Notes under the pieces: model-generated
Told to the model about the DNA's origin: nothing
Databases searched by the model: none
What the model saw: the letters and a program-made list of their open reading frames with translations, nothing else
Part shown: one piece after another, positions 3,075 to 55,306 of the stretch
Layout: the number at the start of each line of letters is the position of its first letter
How positions within the stretch are numbered: position 1 is the first letter of the stretch
Source of the DNA: Hydrotalea sp.
GTDB lineage: Bacteria; Bacteroidota; Bacteroidia; Chitinophagales; Chitinophagaceae
Direction: 5' to 3'
Assembly (NCBI GenBank): GCA_027364735.1
Contig: DAHXOT010000045.1
Span: forward strand, 186,001 to 250,000
Length of the DNA: 64,000 nucleotides
Position numbers and translations under genes: made by a program

Positions 3075-3685
3075 TTATTAATGGGCGTAGCAGATTTTTT
3101 TGTCATTGTTTTTAAATGATCAATAGTTTCTCTTATTTCTTTTATACTCCAAAACCTATATACTTCCGGATCGGCATTTCCTTGCTTTTCAATAGATGTC
3201 ATTCTATGATAAGGAGCAACAATAAATGCATCAATATTATCGGTAATTTTTACAGCATGATAAGGAAGAATAAAATAATTTTTATTAGCTGATGATACAT
3301 TTTTATTTTCTGTAAGAGCTATCAGCGAATCAATATCTTTTGCCAATTCGGCTTGAGTAATAATTTTTGTTTCTTTAGGTACGGCTCCATATTGCTGATA
3401 ACTGCCAATAATAGTATCATTTTTTCCATTTAACATATATAAGCCTTTATCGGCAATGTTAATTGTGGTAGTGCCATCTTCTTTTTTAAGTTCTATATTT
3501 AAAGCACCTGATTGATTAAAATCGGCAGTTTTTTCATCTGTTCCACCACCATCTTTTAATGTAATAGTTTTAGTATCGGTATTAATTATGGCAGAACCTT
3601 TAGCAATAACCATAATTCTTTTGGTATGAGATGAGCAGGCACTAAATACAGTAATTAATAATAAAAACGGGATACTATTTTTCAT
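3071..3685 (-). CDS. putative lipoprotein, function unknown
   Basis: A 204-residue protein with a lipoprotein signal: hydrophobic residues 5-14 followed by the lipobox FSAC with Cys17. The mature part is hydrophilic, with a segment of likely beta strands (residues 25-95) and a C-terminal helix. I do not recognise a named domain. It lies downstream of superoxide dismutase on the same strand, but a strong hairpin separates the two, so linkage is weak. Its stop overlaps the convergent glucanase gene by 4 bases. Confidence 0.7.
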   Translation of the reverse strand: MKNSIPFLLLITVFSACSSHTKRIMVIAKGSAIINTDTKTITLKDGGGTDEKTADFNQSGALNIELKKEDGTTTINIADKGLYMLNGKNDTIIGSYQQYGAVPKETKIITQAELAKDIDSLIALTENKNVSSANKNYFILPYHAVKITDNIDAFIVAPYHRMTSIEKQGNADPEVYRFWSIKEIRETIDHLKTMTKKSATPINN

Positions 3686-3703
3686 AAAAAAATGTTTAAT
3701 AAA

Positions 3704-3727
3704 AAATCCTCTTATAAAAGAGGATTT
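3704..3727 (-). terminator. intrinsic terminator after superoxide dismutase gene
   Basis: A perfect 10-bp stem (arms 3704-3713 and 3718-3727, AAATCCTCTT and its complement) with a 4-base loop, followed on the minus strand by a run of T. It lies 25 bases beyond the sod stop codon and just before the lipoprotein start. Confidence 0.8.
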
Positions 3728-3751
3728 AAAAGTAGTTTATTTTTCGATTGC

Positions 3752-4357
3752 TTATTTCGCTGCAGCAAAACGCTCTGCTACTTTATGCCAATTAACTACA
3801 TTCCAAAAAGCAGCTAAATAATCGGCTCTGCGGTTTTGATATTTTAAATAATAAGCATGTTCCCAAACATCTACACCTAAAATAGGCGTACCTTTTATTT
3901 CGGCAACATCCATTAAAGGATTATCTTGATTGGGAGTTGAACTTATTTCTAATTTATCGTTGCTTACAATTAACCAAGCCCATCCACTTCCAAATCTTGT
4001 CATACCTGCAGCTGCAAATTTTTCTTTAAATGAATCGAAAGAGCCAAATGTACCGTTAATAGCTTCGGCAAAAATGCCAGTTGGAGTTCCTCCGGCATTT
4101 GGTGCTAAAGTTTCCCAGAAAAAACTATGGTTCCAATGGCCACCACCATTATTACGAACTGCGGGAGAAATTGATCCTGCCACTTTAACCAACTCTTCTA
4201 AAGTTTTTCCTTCATTTGCTGTTCCTGCAATAGCCTTATTTAAATTATCTACATAAGCTTGATGATGTTTTCCATGATGAATTTGCATGGTAAGTGTATC
4301 AATGTGTGGCTCCAATGCATCGTATGCATAAGGTAAAGCCGGTAATGTAAAAGCCAT
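3752..4357 (-). CDS. sodA: superoxide dismutase, Mn-type
   Basis: A 201-residue cytosolic enzyme that converts superoxide to hydrogen peroxide and oxygen. The family is evident from the N-terminal [16 protein letters not shown] and the metal ligands H27, H77 (in NHSFFW), D163 and H167 (in DVWEHAY). Metal preference can be read from the second-shell residues. The GGGHWNHS segment and Q144 in the PNQDNPL segment are the pattern of manganese enzymes, whereas iron enzymes carry the glutamine earlier. A cambialistic enzyme cannot be excluded. There is no signal peptide. A Bacteroidota -7 element lies 36 bases upstream, and a terminator follows, so it is likely transcribed alone. Confidence 0.95.
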
Positions 4358-4392
4358 AACTATTTATATTTAAGATTTGAAATTAAAGAGCA

Positions 4393-4400
4393 CAAAAGTA
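4393..4400 (-). promoter_or_regulatory. -7 promoter element for superoxide dismutase gene
   Basis: Read on the minus strand this is TACTTTTG, an exact match to the Bacteroidota -7 consensus TAnnTTTG, 36 bases before the sod ATG. No clear TTTG is seen at the -33 position, so the call rests on the -7 box and its placement. Confidence 0.5.
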
Positions 4401-4454
4401 GTTAATGATGAACTATTGTACAGTATATTATTAAATTCTTTCTTAACTCGAAAG

Positions 4455-4901
4455 CTATCGTTTCTTTTTAAAGAACGATTTAATAATAAACGAACATTCT
4501 TGTTCTAATATACCCTTTGTTACTATTGTTTTAGGATGAAAAGGCCATTCTTCTTTTGTGATACGTTTAAAACCATTTTTTTCATCGCTTGCACCATATA
4601 CAATTCTTCCTATTTTACTCCAGTATAATGCTCCGCAACACATTAAGCAAGGCTCTAAAGTAACATATAAAGTAGCTTCGGGTAAGTATTTTGATCCAAG
4701 TGCATTAAATGCCGATGTTAATGCTAATATTTCTGCATGTGCCGTACTATCGTGTAACAATTCCACTTGATTATGTGCTCTTGCAATTATTTTATTATTT
4801 ACAACTATTATGGCGCCAACAGGTACTTCATCGTTATCAAAAGCTTGTTCTGCTTCTTTTAATGCCTGTTGCATAAAATATTCGTCATTAGGTAAAAGCA
4901 T
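4455..4901 (-). CDS. tadA: tRNA-specific adenosine deaminase
   Basis: A 148-residue zinc-dependent deaminase of the CMP/dCMP deaminase superfamily, which converts adenosine 34 of tRNA-Arg(ACG) to inosine. The zinc site is complete: H55-A-E57 supplies a ligand and the catalytic glutamate, and P84-C85-L-M-C88 supplies the two cysteines. The N-terminal MQQALKEAEQA and VPVGAIIV segments are typical of TadA. Guanine deaminases are related, but length and motifs favour TadA. It is flanked by sod on the same strand and a divergent lipoprotein gene. Confidence 0.88.
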   Translation of the reverse strand: MLLPNDEYFMQQALKEAEQAFDNDEVPVGAIIVVNNKIIARAHNQVELLHDSTAHAEILALTSAFNALGSKYLPEATLYVTLEPCLMCCGALYWSKIGRIVYGASDEKNGFKRITKEEWPFHPKTIVTKGILEQECSFIIKSFFKKKR

Positions 4902-5014
4902 TTAACTAAGGTAGAAAAGAAACTAGTAAGCAAAATATTTTTTGAACAAGAAAATTTTAATAGCCAACCTTTTTTTATTAATCAGCATCTTTTATTTAAA
5001 CAAACTATCATAAA

Positions 5015-45946: not shown

Positions 45947-47089
45947 TTAAGGAATTACTTCGAATAACAATAATTGTGTTTTTTCGAGTGGATTAAAATT
46001 GTTGTCGGCAATAAACAATAGGGTATTATGGCCATTGGGTAATGTAGGGCCAAAGGTTACGCCTTCAATATTATCAATGTACATTTTTAAATCGTCCATG
46101 TTCAGTAATAATTGTTTAGTGGCAGCGGTAAAATGGGTATTTTTTTTAAGCGATTTATTATGGATAATATTTGTGGCATTACTTAAATTGGCCATATAAA
46201 CTTTAATAGTGCAAGCGGATATTCCGGTAGAAAATGAACGTTCAATAACCAATAATTGATGGTTGTTAATAAAAAGAATATCCGGAATACCGTTTATTTT
46301 AAATCCATTTTCGGGAATAGCAGCATGTGCCACTGGATCTAATAAATACGCATATTGTGCTGTGTTTTTTTTAGTTTCTACATCAAACTTATATAGGCGG
46401 ATAAAAGCTTTATTGGGTTGCACATTGGCTCTTGGTCCATCTTCGTACAAAGGTTCTTCAACATTTACCCAAAGTGTTTTATAATTGTTACTAAATGATA
46501 ATCCTTCTAATACACCATTTTGGCGTGGCCCATTTTCGGTGGCATGCATTAATAAATTGTGTGGTAAGGGAAAAGTATCCAAATATTTCCCTTGTTTAGA
46601 CATAATGGTAATTGCCGGATTCTCTAAAATGGTATCTTTTTTATTAACAATTCTTTCTCCTTCGCTTGTCCAATACAAAGTATTATTGGCACTATTAAGC
46701 CGTATATCTTCGGGGTCGGGTGTATGAAAAGGATTTTGTTTAGAATTAGGATATACGGTATCATTGCTTTGCAGCATATTTTGTACATCAACAAAAACAA
46801 TACTGTCTATTGAATTATTATGGATAAAAATATGGGCAGTATAAAATCGTGCAGGATTTATTGCACTTCTGTCATCGCTAATTAAGTAGTATATATTATC
46901 TTTTTTATCATAATCAATACCCGATAAACCACCAATAATAGAATTTTTAAAAGATTGGTTGTATGCAATATCCCGTTCGCTTAAAAATTTTAATTTACTG
47001 ATAGTTTTATTTTGTGTAATTCCTTTGCTATAACAAGTAAATACAATTAAAGGCAGTAGTATATAGTGGTAAATAGATGTTTTTTGCAT
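45947..47089 (-). CDS. esterase-like activity of phytase family protein
   Basis: A 380-residue secreted protein with a signal peptide (hydrophobic residues 8-20). The mature part has the beta-propeller pattern of PF13449 (phytase-like esterase): GGLSGIDYDKKDNIYYLISDD near the start, DPEDIRLNSANNTLYWTSEGER, GVLEGLSFSNNYKTLWVNVEE and IEGVTFGPTLPNGHNTLLFIADNN. The name reflects a domain, not a proved activity. It is not obviously linked to its neighbours. Confidence 0.87.
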   Translation of the reverse strand: MQKTSIYHYILLPLIVFTCYSKGITQNKTISKLKFLSERDIAYNQSFKNSIIGGLSGIDYDKKDNIYYLISDDRSAINPARFYTAHIFIHNNSIDSIVFVDVQNMLQSNDTVYPNSKQNPFHTPDPEDIRLNSANNTLYWTSEGERIVNKKDTILENPAITIMSKQGKYLDTFPLPHNLLMHATENGPRQNGVLEGLSFSNNYKTLWVNVEEPLYEDGPRANVQPNKAFIRLYKFDVETKKNTAQYAYLLDPVAHAAIPENGFKINGIPDILFINNHQLLVIERSFSTGISACTIKVYMANLSNATNIIHNKSLKKNTHFTAATKQLLLNMDDLKMYIDNIEGVTFGPTLPNGHNTLLFIADNNFNPLEKTQLLLFEVIP

Positions 47090-47216: not shown

Positions 47217-47222
47217 ATTAAG

Positions 47223-47296
47223 TGGGCCCACCTGGGCTTGAACCAGGGACCCCCTGATTATGAGTCAGGTGCTCTAACCAGCTGAGCTATAGGCCC
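47223..47296 (-). tRNA. tRNA with CAT anticodon (Met elongator or Ile2)
   Basis: A 74-base cloverleaf. Acceptor stem GGGCCTA pairs with TGGGCCC (one G-U), discriminator A, D-arm GCTC/GAGC, anticodon stem CCTGA/TCAGG with loop CTCATAA, anticodon CAT, T-arm CCTGG TTCAAGC CCAGG. It is not an initiator, since the acceptor starts with a normal G-C pair and the stem lacks the three G-C pairs. Whether it reads AUG or, after lysidine modification, AUA cannot be settled by eye; the GACTCATAATC loop region resembles known tRNA-Ile2. Confidence 0.93.
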
Positions 47297-47356: not shown

Positions 47357-47418
47357 CTAAAAAACAAATTATGCCATAAATTTTTTAAAATTATCTTTAT
47401 ATAGTAATAACTTTTGTG

Positions 47419-48663
47419 ATGCTTAAATCAATTCCAATCCTATTATTCTTTTCCTTTGGTTGCTTATATGTATTTTCTCAAACAAAATCCATTTCATCCG
47501 ATGAGTTATTGCAATTAGCTCGTCATGCAGCTTTTGATAAAAAAGATTATACCACCGCCAAAGCGTATTTATATTCGGCTTTGGCACAATCGCCCAATTA
47601 TGCCGATGTGCGAATTTTTTTAGGAAGAATTTTTTCGTGGACAAGTAACTATGATAGTGCATCAATTTGCTTTTCTTATGTTTTAAAGAATAATCCGGAT
47701 AATGAAGATGCAGCAATTGCATACACTGATTTAAATTACTGGAATGATAAAAACGATAGGGCATTAACTATTTGCAATAATGCATTAAAGTATCATCCAC
47801 AATCGCAAGAAATTTTGCTTCGTAAGACAAAAATACTTTTGGCTCAAAAAAATTTTAGTGAGGCAAATAGTATTATTCAATCGTTACTTTCTATTAATAA
47901 AAACAATACGCAAGCCCGAGAAATTGCCGATGCAATTAAAGATCAATCATCTAAAAATAAAATTGGCATTAGCTACGATTACACATCTTTCGATAAACAA
48001 TTTAACAATCCTTGGCATTTAACAAGTGTTTCTTACTATCGAAATACAAAATTGGGTACTGTTATAGGAAGAATTAATTATGCTAATAGGTTTGCCGAAA
48101 ATGGCTGGCAAGCAGAAATGGAAGCATATCCCAAAATTTCTAAAACCTTTTATAGTTATGTGAATGCAGGATACTCAGATAATATTGGAGTGTTTCCTCA
48201 TTGGCGCGCAGGATATTCGTTATATGCTAATCTTCCCAAAAGTTATGAAGCCGAATTAGGTTTTAGGTATTTAAATTTTTCTGCTGCTCCTATTTGGATT
48301 TATACTGCGTACCTTGGCAAATACTATAAAAGTTGGTTATTTGGATCGAGAGTATATATAACACCCGGACAAAATGGTTCGGCAGTTTCTTCCTCCTATG
48401 CACTTAATGCAAATTATTATTTATCCGATGCCGATAATTTTTGGTCGGCAACCATTGGTTATGGAATTTCTCCTGATGATAATGTCAACTCAATTCAGTT
48501 TAATCAGTTATTAAAAACGTATAAAGCATTGCTAATTTATCAAACCAAAATTTCTAAATTCAATATTTTGTATTTCAATATGGGATGGTATTATCAGGAG
48601 TATTTGCCTCAAACCTGGGGTAATCAATTTCAAACCGGTATATTATGGCAACATCGGTTTTAA
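47419..48663 (+). CDS. YaiO-like TPR and outer-membrane beta-barrel protein
   Basis: A 414-residue protein from ATG 47419 (a GTG codon lies just before). It has a signal peptide (residues 3-20). Residues 25-170 form TPR-like helices (LARHAAFDKKDYTTAKAYLY, FLGRIFSWTSNYDSA, DLNYWNDKNDRAL). The C-terminal 240 residues are a beta-barrel with alternating strands ending in GILWQHRF, the terminal aromatic expected for outer-membrane insertion. This is the YaiO layout; in E. coli yaiO neighbours a glycosyltransferase gene and may export a polysaccharide. The next gene overlaps by 19 bases. Confidence 0.8.
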   Translation: MLKSIPILLFFSFGCLYVFSQTKSISSDELLQLARHAAFDKKDYTTAKAYLYSALAQSPNYADVRIFLGRIFSWTSNYDSASICFSYVLKNNPDNEDAAIAYTDLNYWNDKNDRALTICNNALKYHPQSQEILLRKTKILLAQKNFSEANSIIQSLLSINKNNTQAREIADAIKDQSSKNKIGISYDYTSFDKQFNNPWHLTSVSYYRNTKLGTVIGRINYANRFAENGWQAEMEAYPKISKTFYSYVNAGYSDNIGVFPHWRAGYSLYANLPKSYEAELGFRYLNFSAAPIWIYTAYLGKYYKSWLFGSRVYITPGQNGSAVSSSYALNANYYLSDADNFWSATIGYGISPDDNVNSIQFNQLLKTYKALLIYQTKISKFNILYFNMGWYYQEYLPQTWGNQFQTGILWQHRF

Positions 48664-49829
48664 AATCTTGGTTCAAAATAATAAAAAGAATAGCCATTGT
48701 TGTTCTTGTATTAACACCTGTATTGATGTTTTTAATTTGGTTTTTTTGGCCAAAAAGAAAATTAACGGTAGCTATTATAGATAAAACAGTATTAACTACA
48801 CAAGCACAAGAACATATTTCTTTTAACTGGATTTTAAATCACGAAAAATTTGTAAAAAATAATGAACATCTGTACAATCCTTCAACAGATTATTTTGGTT
48901 TTTTTCCTGAAGAAAATGAAAAATTTCGTTTAAAGGGATTAGAGCGATTTACTAAAAATCAATTAATACAATTAAGTGCAGATGCCGATTTGGTTTATTT
49001 AACCGATGCGTACGGAATTTATAGAAATGAATGGATAAAACACAGCGATACTAAAGAAAGATCGGGAATTATTTATGGAGGAACCAGTGATGCCGATATG
49101 CAATTTTTGCAATTAATGCAACAAAATAAAAAACTTATAATTGCCGAATTTAATTCATTAGGATCGCCAACTTCTCCCATTGTTAGAAGTGAATTTGAAA
49201 AAACTTTTGGAATAAAATGGCTTAATTGGATTGGAAGATATTTTGCAGTATTGGATACTTCGATAAATACCGAATTGCCCAAATGGATGATTAAAAATTA
49301 TCTGTTACAGCATAATCACCAATGGTCTTTTAAAGGAAGTGGAATTGTATTTGTACGAAGCGATGATAGAATTGAAATTTTATCATACCCTATTAATTTA
49401 ACTGTTCAAACGCCATTAATTTATGCTACAGCAGAAGGTAAAAATTATTATCAATTACCCGAAAAAATAAAATACAATTATTGGTTTGAAGTAAATGAAA
49501 TAAACCAAACTTATAACCATTCTATTGCCAATTTTAGCATTGAAACTAATGTTGCCGGTACCGATTCTCTGCTGCGTTGGGGTATTCCAAAAACATTTCC
49601 GGCAGTTTCTGTTCATATTAATAACGGTTACAGATTTTTTTATTTTTCAGGCGATTTTTGCGATAATCCTATTCATCTTTTTTCTGCTTATTTTAAGTGG
49701 GTGCAATATTTTAAATGGATGTTTTATAACACGCAAGATCCTGAAGAAAGAAAAAGTTTTTTTTGGAAATTTTACAGCCCGTTGGTTACAAAAATTTTAA
49801 ATGATTATTATCAGTCGCGAATGCAATAA
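48645..49829 (+). CDS. unrecognised membrane-anchored periplasmic protein
   Basis: A 394-residue protein whose start overlaps the YaiO-like gene by 19 bases. Residues 1-12 are basic, 13-35 form one transmembrane helix (IAIVVLVLTPVLMFLIWFFW), and the rest is probably periplasmic. A mixed alpha/beta part (about 38-190) with KLTVAIIDKT, DADLVYLTDAYGIY and NKKLIIAEFNSLGSP resembles class I glutamine-amidotransferase-like or flavodoxin-like folds, though no catalytic triad is evident. The C-terminal half is rich in Tyr, Trp and Phe. I do not recognise the family. Gene overlap ties it to the YaiO-like protein and to the convergent glycan operon. Confidence 0.75.
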   Translation: MATSVLKSWFKIIKRIAIVVLVLTPVLMFLIWFFWPKRKLTVAIIDKTVLTTQAQEHISFNWILNHEKFVKNNEHLYNPSTDYFGFFPEENEKFRLKGLERFTKNQLIQLSADADLVYLTDAYGIYRNEWIKHSDTKERSGIIYGGTSDADMQFLQLMQQNKKLIIAEFNSLGSPTSPIVRSEFEKTFGIKWLNWIGRYFAVLDTSINTELPKWMIKNYLLQHNHQWSFKGSGIVFVRSDDRIEILSYPINLTVQTPLIYATAEGKNYYQLPEKIKYNYWFEVNEINQTYNHSIANFSIETNVAGTDSLLRWGIPKTFPAVSVHINNGYRFFYFSGDFCDNPIHLFSAYFKWVQYFKWMFYNTQDPEERKSFFWKFYSPLVTKILNDYYQSRMQ

Positions 49830-49834
49830 TTCTT

Positions 49835-52800
49835 TCAATTACTATTTTTAAGTAAGCTATCGGGCAATAATTTATAATTAGAAAGTAATTGGTTGTTCTT
49901 ATATTTAAACTTGTTTAAAGCATTATTGAGTTGTTGCTTTTTACTATCGTTTTGTATTAAACTTATATCCATGTTATTGCTTATTGCATATAAATTATTA
50001 CCCGAAAGCATATAGTCTTCCATTATAAAATCGTTTATTTCTGTTTTAGTTTGCATTAATGGATATGCATGAATATTTCTGAATGATCTTACAGTATCTA
50101 ATCCTGTTCCCATCCAACTTACTGTGGTTGGTATTTTTAAATGGTATGTATTGTGTAATAGCATTAGCAAGCTGGGTGTAATATCGAAATGAGTTGAAAC
50201 TGAAGAAAATTTTGCTGTACGCTTTAAGAGAGGAGAGTAAATAATTAATGGCACATGATAGCGATCTATTTTACTACTCATAGGTATTTCGGGCATTCTA
50301 TGATCTCCTGTAATTATAAAAATAGTATTATTAAATTCTTTGGTTTTGCTATACAGGTTAAAAAAGTATTTTATTGCATCGTCCATATATAAAATAGTGG
50401 CATAATTTTTTTCATAATTTCTATGTTCTTTTTTTTGTGTTTCATCTAAGCCAAGTTCATTCATTCTCTGTTCAAATTTTTGCAGGTATTTGTCTTCTTC
50501 ATTAATAATAAATGGATCATGTGTAGAAACCGTTAAGGCAATATCTATAAAAGGTAATTCGGTAGTGGTTTCTGATAATATTTTTTTAAAAAGATCTTTA
50601 TCGCCATAACCCCATGTAAAACCATTTGTTGCAGGCATTTTTTTATATAGTGAAGATGAGAAGCTTTGTTCATCATGCACGTTTGTTTTATTTTTTTGCA
50701 TGAAAAGATGCATATTATCGAAATCGGCATTTCCTCCATAATAGAAATTGCTTGTATAATTATTGTTATTTAAAATGCTCATTAAAGAAAAGTGTTGTGG
50801 CATTAAATTACCTAATTCGCAAAAACCATTTTTTGCAAATGGCAATGAAGCGGTTACTGAAGGCAATACTGCAAAAGTTCTTCCTCCTTCGCTTAAAAAA
50901 TTCTCCCAGTATAAACTCTTTTCAGATAATGAATCTATAAAAGGAGTAAAGCTTCCTAAATAAGCTCCTTTGTTCGAGAAAGCTCTGCCTAAACCTTCCA
51001 CTAAAATGATAACAATATTGGGCGGCTTTGCCGATGAATTAAAAAAATTGCTTAATACATCGGTGCTATCCATTGTATGTAGAAAAGGAAATTTTTTTTC
51101 ATCAATATAGTTTATAGAAGTTGTTACATTCTTTTCATTATCACTTCCATAATCCCCAATATAAGTATCAGCGTATATGTCGTTATACGGTGTGGAAGGA
51201 AAGAAATGTTGTATTGAAGTAGTTATAAAGTAATAAGGTTTATTAATGGTTAAATTGTTGCTAAACTCTTGCTGCAATTGAATTTGGTTAGTGTATTGTG
51301 AGGTATTAAACAGGAACGATAATAGAAAAATAGAAACAATTATGTAAGAAGTAATACCGTTGCACTTAATTAGTTTGGGTATAAAAATTAAAGCAGTAAC
51401 AGTAGCGGTAATTATTAATACTGCAAGCAAAATAATTTTAATGTTGAATATTCCGGATGAGCCAATTGTTTGCAAAATTTCTTGATAAGAATATCCCCAA
51501 AGATCACTTCCCAATAAAACAGAAGTTCGTAAAAAATATTGTGATAATGCCAATTGAAGTATTACGAGAGAGCTTGCACAAATAAGTAAAATAATTTTTG
51601 CAATAGTTTTATGAATGAATGCAAGCAGAAAGAAAAGTATGCAAAATGCTCCTGCAATTTGTGTGTAGAAACTTATGTCTTTTATTACTGATAGGGTATA
51701 TGTTTTTACTGTAAAATTTGAAAATCCATTATGTACTGAGTTTTGAATTAGTTCTACCAAACGGGATGCAAGCAGTAATAAAAATAATGTTATAGTAATT
51801 GAAATAAATTGTTTTGCTGAAGCAGTAAGGTTAAAAAAAATAGTGGTTATTGATAGTCTTTTTCTTTTCGTTTCCACAGGCAATAATTCTGTAAAAGTCT
51901 GTGCAATTGGTTGTGTTTTATTTTGTGTTGTAAAACCAACTCTTGTCATTTCTCCCCATCCTTTATTTCTTGTAATAAGACTACCAAATCCTTTTATAGA
52001 GCTCCATACAACTAATGGATGAAAATAAAAAGGTTCAAGTAAAGCAGCGATAATAAGTTGAACAATATCCGATTGCCGCCTGTATTGATTGTATGTAATA
52101 ATTTCTAAGCAAATTGCAAAAATAGAATACAGATAGCCTAATAAAATAATAAGAAATAAATAGGTAAAAAAAGTATTCCATTCAATTAACCCGGTTAATG
52201 CCGATAAGAGAAAAAAAGCTAAACCAAAGAATTCAACAAGTGGTGCACAAAGTTCAAATAAAAACCAATAAGGATAACTTAATAAACCGGTAATATGATA
52301 AGCAGGATTAAAGAATAATTTTTTGTGCAGTTTCAATGTTTCAAAAGTTCCTCTTAGCCATCTGTTTCTTTGTCGTTTTAATATTTCGGATGATGAAGGT
52401 ACTTCTGTCCAGCATAGCGGATCGGGAATAAAACTAACAACATATTTTTCTTTTTTCTCTTCCATATATCTACGCATTCTCACTACAAGTTCCATATCTT
52501 CTCCAACTGTATTTGGGTTATATCCTCCGCAGGCAATTACAATTTCTTTATCAAATGCGCCGAATGCACCCGATATAAGCAATAATCCATTTAAATGGCT
52601 CCATGCCATTCTTCCTAAAATAAAAGCTCGTATGTATTCAAGGCTTTGCATGCGAGCCAAAAAATTAGTTGGCAAATTTACTTTCACCAATCTTCCATGT
52701 TCAATAATGCAAGAGTTTGCTACGCGTACTACACCACCGGTTGCAATTACCCTTTTATCTGTTTGTTCTAAAAAGGGTTTTATCATTTTTAATAGCGCAT

Positions 52801-53344
52801 CATTTTCTAATACGCAATCAACATCAATACAAACTAAATATTTATTCGATGCGATATTGATACCTGTATTTAATGCATCGGCTTTTCCTCCATTTACTTT
52901 ATCTATAACAATTAATTTTTTATAAATAGGATTTTTACTTTTATAAACTGCTTTAACTTCTTTGGTATTAATTTGATAATTGATAAAGTAGTTGGCATTT
53001 TCTAATTCAAACTCTTGTATTAATTTTTGTAAACTATCATCTTTACTTCCATCATTAATAATAATTACTTCAAAATTGCTGTAATACAGCGATAGTAGTG
53101 AACGGGCATTTTCGATAATAGTTTGACCTTCATTATAAGCCGGAGCTAATATGCTGATAGATGGTGTATATTTTGATGCAGCAAGTAATGTGTAGTTGGT
53201 AAATTTATTTTTTTGTAAGTAACTTTTAATTTCAAGTATAGCAAAAAAGCTAATTGCAAAATAGGTAATTATTAAAAGAATGGAGTAAATAAAAATTACA
53301 TATTGCACCATCAACTGAATAATATATTGTATGTAGTATATCAA
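49835..53344 (-). CDS. fusion of processive GT2 glycosyltransferase and LtaS-type phosphotransferase
   Basis: A 1169-residue membrane protein. After two N-terminal helices, residues 55-345 form a GT2 domain: INDGS with D98, CIDVD with D174 and D176, TVGED with D283, and Q325-R-N-R-W329, the motif of processive synthases such as cellulose, hyaluronan and PNAG enzymes. Several helices span 350-460 and 510-680. Residues 770-1130 form an alkaline-phosphatase-fold domain of the LtaS/sulfatase type, with E783 in LVEGLG, T823 in GGRT (likely nucleophile) and D1014-H1015 in ITGDHR. It may polymerise a sugar chain and add phospho-groups. The start is a TTG overlapping the upstream TGA; ATG 53311 is an alternative. 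Confidence 0.85.
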   Translation of the reverse strand: MIYYIQYIIQLMVQYVIFIYSILLIITYFAISFFAILEIKSYLQKNKFTNYTLLAASKYTPSISILAPAYNEGQTIIENARSLLSLYYSNFEVIIINDGSKDDSLQKLIQEFELENANYFINYQINTKEVKAVYKSKNPIYKKLIVIDKVNGGKADALNTGINIASNKYLVCIDVDCVLENDALLKMIKPFLEQTDKRVIATGGVVRVANSCIIEHGRLVKVNLPTNFLARMQSLEYIRAFILGRMAWSHLNGLLLISGAFGAFDKEIVIACGGYNPNTVGEDMELVVRMRRYMEEKKEKYVVSFIPDPLCWTEVPSSSEILKRQRNRWLRGTFETLKLHKKLFFNPAYHITGLLSYPYWFLFELCAPLVEFFGLAFFLLSALTGLIEWNTFFTYLFLIILLGYLYSIFAICLEIITYNQYRRQSDIVQLIIAALLEPFYFHPLVVWSSIKGFGSLITRNKGWGEMTRVGFTTQNKTQPIAQTFTELLPVETKRKRLSITTIFFNLTASAKQFISITITLFLLLLASRLVELIQNSVHNGFSNFTVKTYTLSVIKDISFYTQIAGAFCILFFLLAFIHKTIAKIILLICASSLVILQLALSQYFLRTSVLLGSDLWGYSYQEILQTIGSSGIFNIKIILLAVLIITATVTALIFIPKLIKCNGITSYIIVSIFLLSFLFNTSQYTNQIQLQQEFSNNLTINKPYYFITTSIQHFFPSTPYNDIYADTYIGDYGSDNEKNVTTSINYIDEKKFPFLHTMDSTDVLSNFFNSSAKPPNIVIILVEGLGRAFSNKGAYLGSFTPFIDSLSEKSLYWENFLSEGGRTFAVLPSVTASLPFAKNGFCELGNLMPQHFSLMSILNNNNYTSNFYYGGNADFDNMHLFMQKNKTNVHDEQSFSSSLYKKMPATNGFTWGYGDKDLFKKILSETTTELPFIDIALTVSTHDPFIINEEDKYLQKFEQRMNELGLDETQKKEHRNYEKNYATILYMDDAIKYFFNLYSKTKEFNNTIFIITGDHRMPEIPMSSKIDRYHVPLIIYSPLLKRTAKFSSVSTHFDITPSLLMLLHNTYHLKIPTTVSWMGTGLDTVRSFRNIHAYPLMQTKTEINDFIMEDYMLSGNNLYAISNNMDISLIQNDSKKQQLNNALNKFKYKNNQLLSNYKLLPDSLLKNSN

Positions 53345-54495
53345 TTTAGTAGCATTTCTTTTTTTATATGCAAGTATATTTTTTCATATACAGTATTTAA
53401 AGCTTTTCCTTTTTCTTCTAAAATAGTTAATCCTGTTTTAAAGCAATGCGTTAAAGCTCTTGCGGCATAAAGTTTAATCATATCATTTTCATTCGATAGT
53501 TGGGTTAATAAAAAATCAAACTGGTCTTTATTGCCAATAGCCGATATGGCTTTTAAAATTTGAATTTTAATACTAAATATTTCTTCGTTGTATATGTTAA
53601 CTAACTCATTTGCGGTGGTTTCGTTGGCAATATGCAATAATGTTTCAATGGCTTGAGAGCGGATACGAGCATTTGTATGCGTTAAGCAATGTAAAACCTC
53701 GTTATGAAAATGTAGTTTTTGAAATATTTCAGCAAATCGCAAGGCTATTAATACAACCGAATCATTAGCCGATAAAAGCCATTTAGAAAGATTATCCGAT
53801 AATTGTCCATCCTCAGTATGTGCAGCCAATTGTTCTAATATTTTAAGTTGTTGCCATTCTGTAAGCGGATAAGTCAATGAATCTAAAAAATTCAATCCCT
53901 TAAATCCTAATAAATTAATGATACCTATTTGGGCTTCCATTCTAATTATTTCGTTATGGCTATCTACATTTTTGTATAATTCATGTATCATATCGGTTTG
54001 CCCAAACGTATATAATTCTATAATTCCTTTGGTTTTAATATTCCATTTTCGGCTATGTATTTTTTTTAGTGAATCTTGTTTTAGGTTTAATTGATTATAT
54101 AGTAATTGCACCTTTTGTTTTGCTGCTCCGGAAAGATTGTTAATAGTAGCTTCTAATTGATTAATTACATAATTGCGAGCATCTTTTTTATGTAATATTT
54201 TTTTTAATCTTATAATAGAGCTGTTATCTTCTTCCCAATTATCCCAAGTGCCAATAACAATACCTGCAATTAAATTTTCTGTTAGTGTAGATAATTTTTT
54301 TTTCCGAATAAAAATTTGTTTGCTGTTATTTAAAATTAAAAAAGCAAATAGTAATAAAATAAGCAATAAGGAAAGTAAAATAATAGTGGCTGTATTAATT
54401 GTAGCAGGAGTAATGATTTTAAGAAAAACATATTGCACACTCCCAAATTGAAGTGAAAAGGATATTGGGTTAATATGGATAAATGGAGAAAACAA
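53341..54495 (-). CDS. membrane-anchored HEAT-like repeat protein
   Basis: A 384-residue protein. One transmembrane helix (about 33-55, IILLSLLLILLLFAFLIL) follows a short N-terminus, so the repeats most likely lie in the cytoplasm. From about 160 to 370 there are paired helices of HEAT type, for example NEIIRMEAQIGIINLLGF, NARIRSQAIETLLHIANE and NDMIKLYAARALTHCFKTG. It could scaffold the glycosyltransferase encoded next. It begins with TTG at 54495 as no ATG occurs for over 150 codons, and its stop overlaps the start of the fusion gene. Confidence 0.8.
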   Translation of the reverse strand: MFSPFIHINPISFSLQFGSVQYVFLKIITPATINTATIILLSLLLILLLFAFLILNNSKQIFIRKKKLSTLTENLIAGIVIGTWDNWEEDNSSIIRLKKILHKKDARNYVINQLEATINNLSGAAKQKVQLLYNQLNLKQDSLKKIHSRKWNIKTKGIIELYTFGQTDMIHELYKNVDSHNEIIRMEAQIGIINLLGFKGLNFLDSLTYPLTEWQQLKILEQLAAHTEDGQLSDNLSKWLLSANDSVVLIALRFAEIFQKLHFHNEVLHCLTHTNARIRSQAIETLLHIANETTANELVNIYNEEIFSIKIQILKAISAIGNKDQFDFLLTQLSNENDMIKLYAARALTHCFKTGLTILEEKGKALNTVYEKIYLHIKKEMLLN

Positions 54496-54511
54496 TTAAA
54501 CTTTTGTTTAA

Positions 54512-54871
54512 TTATTTAAATTTTAGTAATCGGTTCATTCTAAAAACTAATTCATTTAAATTAAATGGTTTAGTTACATAATCGTCGGCACCAAGGTTAA
54601 ATGCTTCTTCAACATGATGTTCTTGCCCTAATGAGGTTAATACTATAATTTTTGCTTGTAATTTTTTTTGTTTCACTTTCACAATAATTTCTATTCCCGA
54701 AGAGTAAGGCAGCATTAAATCGGTAATAACAAGGTCGGGCTCTAACTTGTCTAATATCTCTAACGCATCTTTACCATTATCGCAGCAAATTACCTCAAAG
54801 CCTTCTCTTTGTAATTTTAGCTCAACGGTTTTTAGCATAATGGATTCATCTTCTACCAAAAGTATTTTCAT
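54512..54871 (-). CDS. single-domain response regulator
   Basis: A 119-residue CheY-like receiver from ATG 54871. The acidic pocket is E7-D8 (LLVEDES), the phospho-acceptor is D51 in ITDLMLP, the threonine or serine is in VLTSLG, and the lysine in VTKPF. No output domain is attached, so it must act through protein contact or pass phosphate on. It is second in the operon, between the HPt gene and the HEAT-like gene, 16 bases from the latter. Confidence 0.92.
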   Translation of the reverse strand: MKILLVEDESIMLKTVELKLQREGFEVICCDNGKDALEILDKLEPDLVITDLMLPYSSGIEIIVKVKQKKLQAKIIVLTSLGQEHHVEEAFNLGADDYVTKPFNLNELVFRMNRLLKFK

Positions 54872-54934
54872 ACATAAAGGATATTTTATAAGCAATAAAT
54901 TTAAGCAATTTTATACCGTAGGCAATATTTATTC

Positions 54935-55306
54935 CTATTGAAGCTTTGCCAAATATGCCGATAATAAAGGAATTGATGCATTGGTTTGTTGTTCTAATTT
55001 CTGTATTAAATTGGCAATAAGTGGTAATTGTTCGGCACTTTTGGCTAACTTTTCTATTTCGGTTGCAACCTGTAGTAAGTTATTTATTTGTATTACTGAT
55101 AAAGAAGATTTAGCAATATGTGCATTGCTCGAAAGGTTGTCCCATTCTTTATTCTCGTAATTTATTTTTATTTTCTCAATGGTTTTCGGCAAATTTTGTA
55201 TAAAAAGTGCTATAATAGTTCTTGCGGTAGTACCATTAAAATCTATAAATTCTCCTATAAAAGTTAAATCAATTTGTATATTATCGGCATCAATTATTTT
55301 TTTCAT
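54935..55306 (-). CDS. HPt domain protein
   Basis: A 123-residue helical protein. The segment AHIAKSSLSVI matches the HPt phosphorylation motif (HxxKSS), and the surrounding helices fit a four-helix bundle. HPt proteins shuttle phosphate between receivers. It is the first gene of the operon with the response regulator (63 bases away), the HEAT-like protein and the glycosyltransferase fusion. The upstream kinase is not adjacent; the nearest is at 61003-62964, on the other strand and probably unrelated. Confidence 0.85.
   Translation of the reverse strand: MKKIIDADNIQIDLTFIGEFIDFNGTTARTIIALFIQNLPKTIEKIKINYENKEWDNLSSNAHIAKSSLSVIQINNLLQVATEIEKLAKSAEQLPLIANLIQKLEQQTNASIPLLSAYLAKLQ

Follow-up and report, generated by a model that had tools for sequence, protein, structure and literature searches.

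How might polymer synthesis be switched in bacteria in which no GGDEF enzyme is found? The question is raised by a gene cluster in a 64,000-nucleotide stretch of DNA from Hydrotalea sp. (contig DAHXOT010000045.1; hereafter the window), whose genome assembly comprises 2.77 Mb in 54 contigs. Synthases of cellulose, poly-N-acetylglucosamine (PNAG), and similar exopolysaccharides are commonly activated by cyclic di-GMP (c-di-GMP), as set out in the sections of PMC8669469 used here, and most of the Bacteroidota genomes tested are without a GGDEF enzyme. The cluster encodes a histidine phosphotransfer protein (HPt), a receiver, a HEAT-repeat protein, a fusion of a family 2 glycosyltransferase (GT2) with an LtaS-like enzyme, a YaiO-family barrel, and a protein here called PERI. 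This gene set is widespread among the bacteria sampled and offers a testable answer to the question; its apparent task is the synthesis, decoration, and export of a sugar chain at the cell surface. We consider it fairly probable that it forms a synthase-dependent exopolysaccharide system that is switched by a phosphorelay through the output-less receiver and the HEAT co-subunit. For a broader proposal we see about even chances, namely that control of this kind operates across the phylum, with a phosphorylated stand-alone receiver binding a membrane HEAT co-polymerase and thereby switching the adjacent GT2 post-translationally, in replacement of c-di-GMP in Bacteroidota, and with the synthase in some branches welded to a phospho-decorating enzyme.

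The six open reading frames (ORFs) were confirmed in two tightly packed convergent groups whose stops are 5 bases apart. Pfam domains were called at curated cut-offs on the six proteins and on two flanking proteins, and they agree with the domains named in a preliminary description of the locus, the gene overlaps of which were likewise confirmed. The minus strand carries, in order, a stand-alone HPt (54935-55306; Hpt, 6e-8), a single-domain receiver without an output domain (54512-54895; Response_reg, 5e-28), which likely starts at the ATG at 54871 and would then have ~119 residues, a membrane-anchored HEAT-repeat protein (53341-54495; HEAT_2, 7e-8, 33.0 bits against a cut-off of 27.7), and the fusion of 1169 residues (49835-53344). 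The latter joins a processive-type GT2 (residues 1 to ~480; 4e-21) to an LtaS/VP1736-like membrane phosphotransferase (residues ~500-1169; Sulfatase, the LtaS superfamily, 3e-30). Spacings of 39 and 16 bases separate the first three genes, and the HEAT and fusion genes overlap by 4 bases. On the plus strand, the YaiO-family protein (47419-48663 from its ATG, in an ORF spanning 47416-48663; YaiO, 9e-71) overlaps PERI (48645-49829) by 19 bases.

Recurrence of these genes was assessed in two samples. A search of contigs with a profile of the GT2 alignment gave a GT2-anchored sample, the best 80 of 558 relatives, whose loci cover five named Bacteroidota orders. Because this sample is biased to close GT2s, a second, HEAT-anchored sample was drawn separately across the phylum, in which HEAT matches occur in 71 of 395 genomes at 1e-8 and in 52 of 395 at 2.7e-24 or better. 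The 60 loci fetched (60 of 80 places, being the best 63 minus G000, G015, and G032) include 56 with a GT2; the four without (L186, L191, L193, and L192, which lies at a contig end) were left out of tallies that require one. One locus is the same as another (L149 and L086) and one tally repeats another (L175 and L154); L149 and L175 were omitted from the clustering, coevolution, and length tallies while remaining among the 60, and without L175 a GT2 is present in 55 of 59. Apart from this, the two sets have no GT2 or HEAT ORF in common. Gene presence was scored within eight genes, by profile classes whose training drew in part on the GT2-anchored sample of 80.

The HEAT gene lies immediately upstream of GT2 at 77 of the 80 GT2-anchored loci and at all 56 HEAT-anchored loci with a GT2. 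A short receiver is found at 77 and 49 loci, respectively, a kinase at 56 and 26, YaiO at 67 and 46, and PERI at 23 and 8, and the LtaS-like enzyme is fused at 35 and 12, separate at 22 and 14, and absent at 23 and 30. BLAST clustering of neighbors within eight genes at 134 loci, in which gene picking favored profile matches, recovered HEAT at 132, two-component proteins at 125, YaiO at 108, LtaS or the fusion at 81, and PERI at 30, followed by families at 16, 12, and 12 loci, one of the 12-locus families probably being DUF4838, which marks a sub-branch (two such proteins were typed). The gene order varies: kinase-receiver-HEAT-GT2-LtaS faces PERI-YaiO in L038, kinase-receiver-HEAT-GT2-YaiO-PERI has LtaS opposite in L039, and L041 reads kinase-receiver-YaiO-HEAT-GT2. 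Since these genes are met again and again at the loci compared and the remaining neighbors change, the association goes beyond chance; it is very well supported, and the genes constitute a real unit. The preliminary description had named beforehand, as what would speak against it, a scattering of these genes in related genomes, or orthologues of the fusion next to unrelated genes; what we find is that HEAT, receiver, and YaiO stay with GT2 at most loci examined. Its unit of six genes needs trimming, because HPt, the fusion, and PERI all vary and had been given too much weight, while receiver, HEAT, GT2, and YaiO recur together at most loci. The neighbor counts therefore point to receiver-HEAT-GT2-YaiO as the likely core, with a local kinase, the LtaS-like enzyme, and PERI as optional parts. 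Flavobacterium johnsoniae, like L119, has a short form that lacks LtaS and PERI, and the form with LtaS is that of Sphingobacterium or Pedobacter. Among 59 relatives, the fusion gene was matched in 17 and PERI in six.

The GT2 part bears the motifs of a membrane glycosyltransferase, assigned by eye as DxD, TED-type, and QxxRW, and all 10 rows aligned share D98, D174/D176, E282-D283, and Q325-R328-W329; the names of the processive synthase motifs follow the sections of PMC8669469 used here. Its best-scoring named NCBIfam family is PgaC/IcaA (TIGR03937), at 120.8 bits against a cut-off of 422.3, which is not reached. A canonical PNAG system was dropped as a candidate, the PgaC cut-off being unmet and Pfam finding no deacetylase among the six proteins and two flanking proteins. 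In the LtaS part, residues E288, T328, H447, D519, and H520 are kept in 61, 59, 61, 61, and 61 of 61 rows, selected, as for the receiver below, by profile score; we take these to be a catalytic glutamate, the threonine nucleophile, and histidine and aspartate-histidine metal ligands. The match to VP1736 (2e-18) is better than that to lipoteichoic acid synthases, and this part has, like VP1736, a YGGxxxFDNM stretch where the Bacillus enzyme 2w8d has FWNR. The FWNR-type stretch is the substrate stretch of lipoteichoic acid synthases; because it is replaced here, the LtaS part is probably no lipoteichoic acid synthase proper, and lipoteichoic acid synthesis was dropped as a candidate for the same reason.

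The preliminary description had presented the LtaS-like enzyme as a fusion. This holds for the window, and elsewhere the enzyme is often encoded by a gene of its own next to GT2 or is missing; GT2 and LtaS are, for example, separate genes, adjacent or nearby, in L038, L039, and L047. GT2 and LtaS thus form a pair that is fused in some cases. Mapped onto a tree of 147 GT2 rows, the fused state requires eight changes, where 200 rounds of label shuffling never gave fewer than 35, and it has therefore been mostly inherited, yet gained or lost several times. A separate pairing occurs in the window's own genome, where a second LtaS-like gene (809 residues) is divergent from that of a GH18-deacetylase-GT2 protein of 1140 residues (G000:C43:100873-106828, equivalent to L051:5874-11829); similar pairs are present in G001 and G025.

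The HEAT protein is a proposed co-subunit of the synthase. The HEAT and GT2 genes overlap at 91 of 131 loci, by exactly 4 bases at 49, and gene overlap is frequent for translationally coupled partners; the distance correlation between the two proteins is strong (partial 0.74). An AlphaFold2 model (mean predicted local distance difference test score, pLDDT, 92.6) has a long helix at residues 30-81 followed by helical repeats, and the 50 matches listed in a fold search with it are helical-repeat proteins of many kinds. A hydrophobic segment is present in 130 of 131 HEAT proteins, with net positive charge following it. The solenoid is probably cytosolic, with the N-terminus out, because a LysM domain precedes the segment in the L040 homologue (2e-25); LysM is also matched weakly, below the cut-off, in L141. 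The L117 and L139 homologues have sub-cut-off SPOR-like parts before the HEAT repeats, and such N-terminal LysM or SPOR-like parts hint that the protein may be connected with the cell wall. Among long HEAT ORFs (ten read by eye, five scanned against Pfam), no fusion of receiver and HEAT genes was found; these ORFs carry extra HEAT-like or low-complexity stretches, membrane segments, or N-terminal LysM or weak SPOR-like parts.

Upstream of the HEAT protein in the proposed chain of signaling stands the receiver, which has 150 residues or fewer at 122 of 124 loci and in which D16, D59 (the phospho-accepting aspartate), and K109 are kept in 91, 90, and 91 of 91 rows. The phosphorelay that the preliminary description had proposed is borne out at other loci: a kinase adjoins the receiver in gene order at 49 of 80 GT2-anchored and 23 of 56 HEAT-anchored loci, and the L038 kinase (CHASE3-PAS-HisKA-HATPase-REC-HPt) ends in REC-HPt, to which the window HPt is similar. 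A gene for a stand-alone HPt does not recur regularly in the set, and we read that of the window as what is left of a hybrid kinase, namely its tail. In a search of the locus ORFs and 32 loci of its own genome, it matches HPt parts of kinases or of shortened kinases at these loci (best 32-36% identity), the shortened forms having 287-288 (L086, L092, L149), 263 (L058), and 128 residues (L055); its histidine, assigned by eye, lies in an AHxxKSSxSV stretch common to the window, L055, and L092. The window HPt is thus probably the end product of a reduction of the kinase at the locus, as judged from these sequence matches, and another hybrid kinase would therefore feed it in this genome. There are 38 HATPase_c matches in the genome, not all of them kinases, and one other HPt, which lies within a hybrid kinase and is not close to that of the window (E 0.99). 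Two of the hybrid kinases scanned (L196 and L199) terminate in a receiver without an HPt, and either could be the feeder; the candidates of this kind in the genome lie at C1:45038 and C10:72875, and L196 is 46% identical over 545 residues to the kinase at a Chryseobacterium locus (L093).

For export, the YaiO protein combines TPR_19 repeats at its N-terminus (2e-18) with the YaiO outer-membrane barrel, which scores 237.8 bits for PF19413 (cut-off 23.9) and 172.3 for TIGR04390 (cut-off 32), and we propose that it exports the polymer across the outer membrane. PERI, which has an N-terminal membrane helix and would be periplasmic, matches no Pfam family above the cut-off, the sole sub-cut-off match being ATG7_N (0.0045), and a sequence search against the PDB gave one chance-level match (E 1.7). 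Its AlphaFold2 model (pLDDT 90.3, from a 33-row alignment) predicts a class-I glutamine-amidotransferase-like (GATase1-like) fold: VIA-align Z scores are 14.8, 14.6, and 14.2 to 3soz, 2gk3, and 3rht, with ~205 residues aligned at root-mean-square deviations of 3.1-3.5, and matches between Z 13.1 and 14.8 include the Agd3 deacetylase 6nwz and the oligosaccharyltransferase complex chain G, 6s7t. Foldseek gave a modest best E of 3.8e-5 and low query TM scores of 0.28-0.34 for the six matches at E <= 0.001. No catalytic cysteine was seen, in that no cysteine falls in columns conserved at 90% or more; residue 339 is a cysteine in 19 of 33 rows and lies off the strand 164-168, the presumed site of the nucleophile elbow. 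We expect a role in binding or scaffolding more than in amidotransfer. Loci with PERI also have LtaS in 20 of 23 GT2-anchored and 7 of 8 HEAT-anchored cases (27 of 31 together). PERI as an obligate partner of LtaS was dropped as a candidate, since no significant independent link was found on the tree (8 starred pairs).

We propose the following mechanism. The GT2 domain would polymerize a sugar and move the chain through the inner membrane, and the LtaS-like domain fused to it would act from the periplasmic side, transferring a phospho-headgroup from a membrane lipid onto the emerging chain. PERI would help in the periplasm as an accessory, and passage across the outer membrane would be the task of the YaiO TPR/barrel protein. 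As a permanent partner of the synthase, the membrane HEAT protein would also be the signal adaptor. A phosphorelay of hybrid kinase, HPt, and single-domain receiver would set the phosphorylation of the receiver, which would dock on the HEAT solenoid and switch the synthase in one direction or the other, so that receiver and HEAT would do the job of the c-di-GMP-binding parts in cellulose, PNAG, and Nfr synthases. The phospho-modified polymer of the preliminary description is plausible in that the LtaS-like catalytic residues are kept and BcsA/BcsG sets a precedent; both the switch and the glycan chemistry are inferred. If the proposal is right, many environmental genera should make an exopolysaccharide that bears phosphate.

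The replacement of c-di-GMP fits the scarcity of GGDEF, without being proved by it. GGDEF had no match in 56 of 59 genomes, including that of the window, and in the HEAT-anchored sample 44 of 49 HEAT-positive genomes likewise gave none; as a built-in control, the search detected GGDEF in 8 of 14 well-known genomes, including those of E. coli, B. subtilis, and Caulobacter. PilZ and MshEN had no Pfam match in the six proteins. A c-di-GMP-controlled synthase would call for such a binding domain in the set and for a diguanylate cyclase in the genome, and GGDEF had no match in that of the window. Several observations weigh against our proposal as a whole. The absence of GGDEF is not specific, because GGDEF is rare in these lineages anyway. 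A short receiver is missing at 7 of 56 HEAT-anchored and 3 of 80 GT2-anchored loci (some cut by contig ends), YaiO at 13 of 80 GT2-anchored and 10 of 56 HEAT-anchored loci, and LtaS at 23 of 80 and 30 of 56; a kinase is nearby at only 56 of 80 and 26 of 56, and L081 has a kinase without a separate receiver. The partial correlation between receiver and HEAT is 0.25 against 0.165 between receiver and GT2, with overlapping subsample ranges, PERI and LtaS are without significant independent association on the tree, and the donor sugar, linkage, and phospho-group are not readable from sequence.

Two other explanations have to be weighed against this proposal. Output-less receivers can work via distant partners, and the phosphorelay might accordingly target transcription or some other site elsewhere and be placed here by co-expression, the HEAT protein being a structural or assembly subunit without a part in signaling. 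The far tighter coupling of HEAT with GT2 than of receiver with HEAT (partial 0.74 against 0.25) and the HEAT-GT2 pairs without a local receiver at 7 of 56 loci would suit this explanation, which we nevertheless regard as unlikely: the receiver gene stands immediately before HEAT, the median distance between the two being 10 bases at the 91 loci that have the receiver two genes upstream, and receiver and kinase remain in the cluster even when they are on the YaiO side (L054, L056, L057). Nor do the commonest neighbor families include a transcription factor (AraC-like at most 7 and Crp-like 5 of 134 loci, named by eye). The switch by protein contact rather than transcription, as first proposed in the preliminary description, fits the short receivers and the finding that no transcription factor recurs among these families, and the contact itself would be with HEAT.

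The other explanation concerns the product. LtaS-superfamily enzymes often act on membrane lipids, and 53 of 136 GT2 loci have no LtaS-like gene within eight genes, so that the GT2 might make a short or lipid-linked glycan, the LtaS-like enzyme modify a membrane lipid or lipid A, and YaiO serve some other envelope task. We think this quite improbable, given that the GT2 bears processive synthase motifs and scores best against PgaC/IcaA, that a TPR/barrel protein occurs at 67 of the 80 GT2-anchored loci, and that fusion to the synthase would put the LtaS domain beside the chain exit. A phosphorelay-switched exopolysaccharide synthase remains the reading that we prefer.

Several neighboring features were recorded. 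A tRNA-Met (CAT) gene lies on the minus strand at 47222-47296, ~120 bases from the YaiO start, and past it a phytase-like esterase-domain protein (PF13449, 1.5e-73) is encoded on the same strand at 45947-47089; a copy 65% identical to it is found near the other LtaS pair in L052. In one sub-branch (L044, L160, L178, L187, L188), the HEAT-GT2-YaiO cluster is accompanied by a large glycosidase-like protein (DUF4838 in the scanned L044 and L178). A second GT2 is present in L043 and L044, and in L040 a CotH-kinase-type protein (PF08757, 8.5e-55) is encoded at 3493-4917, between YaiO and HEAT.

Compared with known systems, the locus combines familiar parts with unfamiliar ones. The layout of a TPR-barrel exporter is that of Pga, and PgaABCD/IcaA is the nearest named system for the GT2, far under the PgaC cut-off as this match is. 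As the preliminary description had noted, yaiO in E. coli is near a glycosyltransferase: in yaiO-yaiX-yaiP-yaiS it is close to the putative glucosyltransferase gene yaiP. Unlike our locus, that region of E. coli K-12 has an acyltransferase pseudogene interrupted by an insertion sequence and a putative deacetylase, and no receiver, HEAT protein, or LtaS is annotated within the 9 kb viewed. With LtaS/VP1736 phosphotransferases, the enzyme of the locus has the sulfatase-fold catalytic residues in common, and it differs in being fused to a GT2. The HEAT-receiver-GT2 gene set was not found described among the titles and abstracts listed in a literature search, the coverage of which left out most subscription journals, and the control module is apparently undescribed. 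In the E. coli Bcs system, according to the sections of PMC11470070 used here, a processive synthase is likewise joined by a phosphoethanolamine transferase that works on the polymer, BcsG; this enzyme is unfused and recruited by BcsA, and the synthase is c-di-GMP-dependent. By sequence, the LtaS part of our locus resembles VP1736/LtaS. NfrBA-YbcH, the E. coli synthase of the N4 glycan receptor, is alike in having a GT2 synthase, a TPR/outer-membrane barrel, an inner-membrane-anchored periplasmic protein, and overlapping genes; it differs in that its switch is c-di-GMP, bound by a C-terminal MshEN domain (both points as given in the sections of PMC8669469 used here), where the locus instead carries genes for a receiver, a HEAT-repeat protein, and an enzyme of LtaS type. 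The locus thus looks like an Nfr/Bcs-type system whose switch is another one and whose synthase, in some branches, has its decorating enzyme welded to it.

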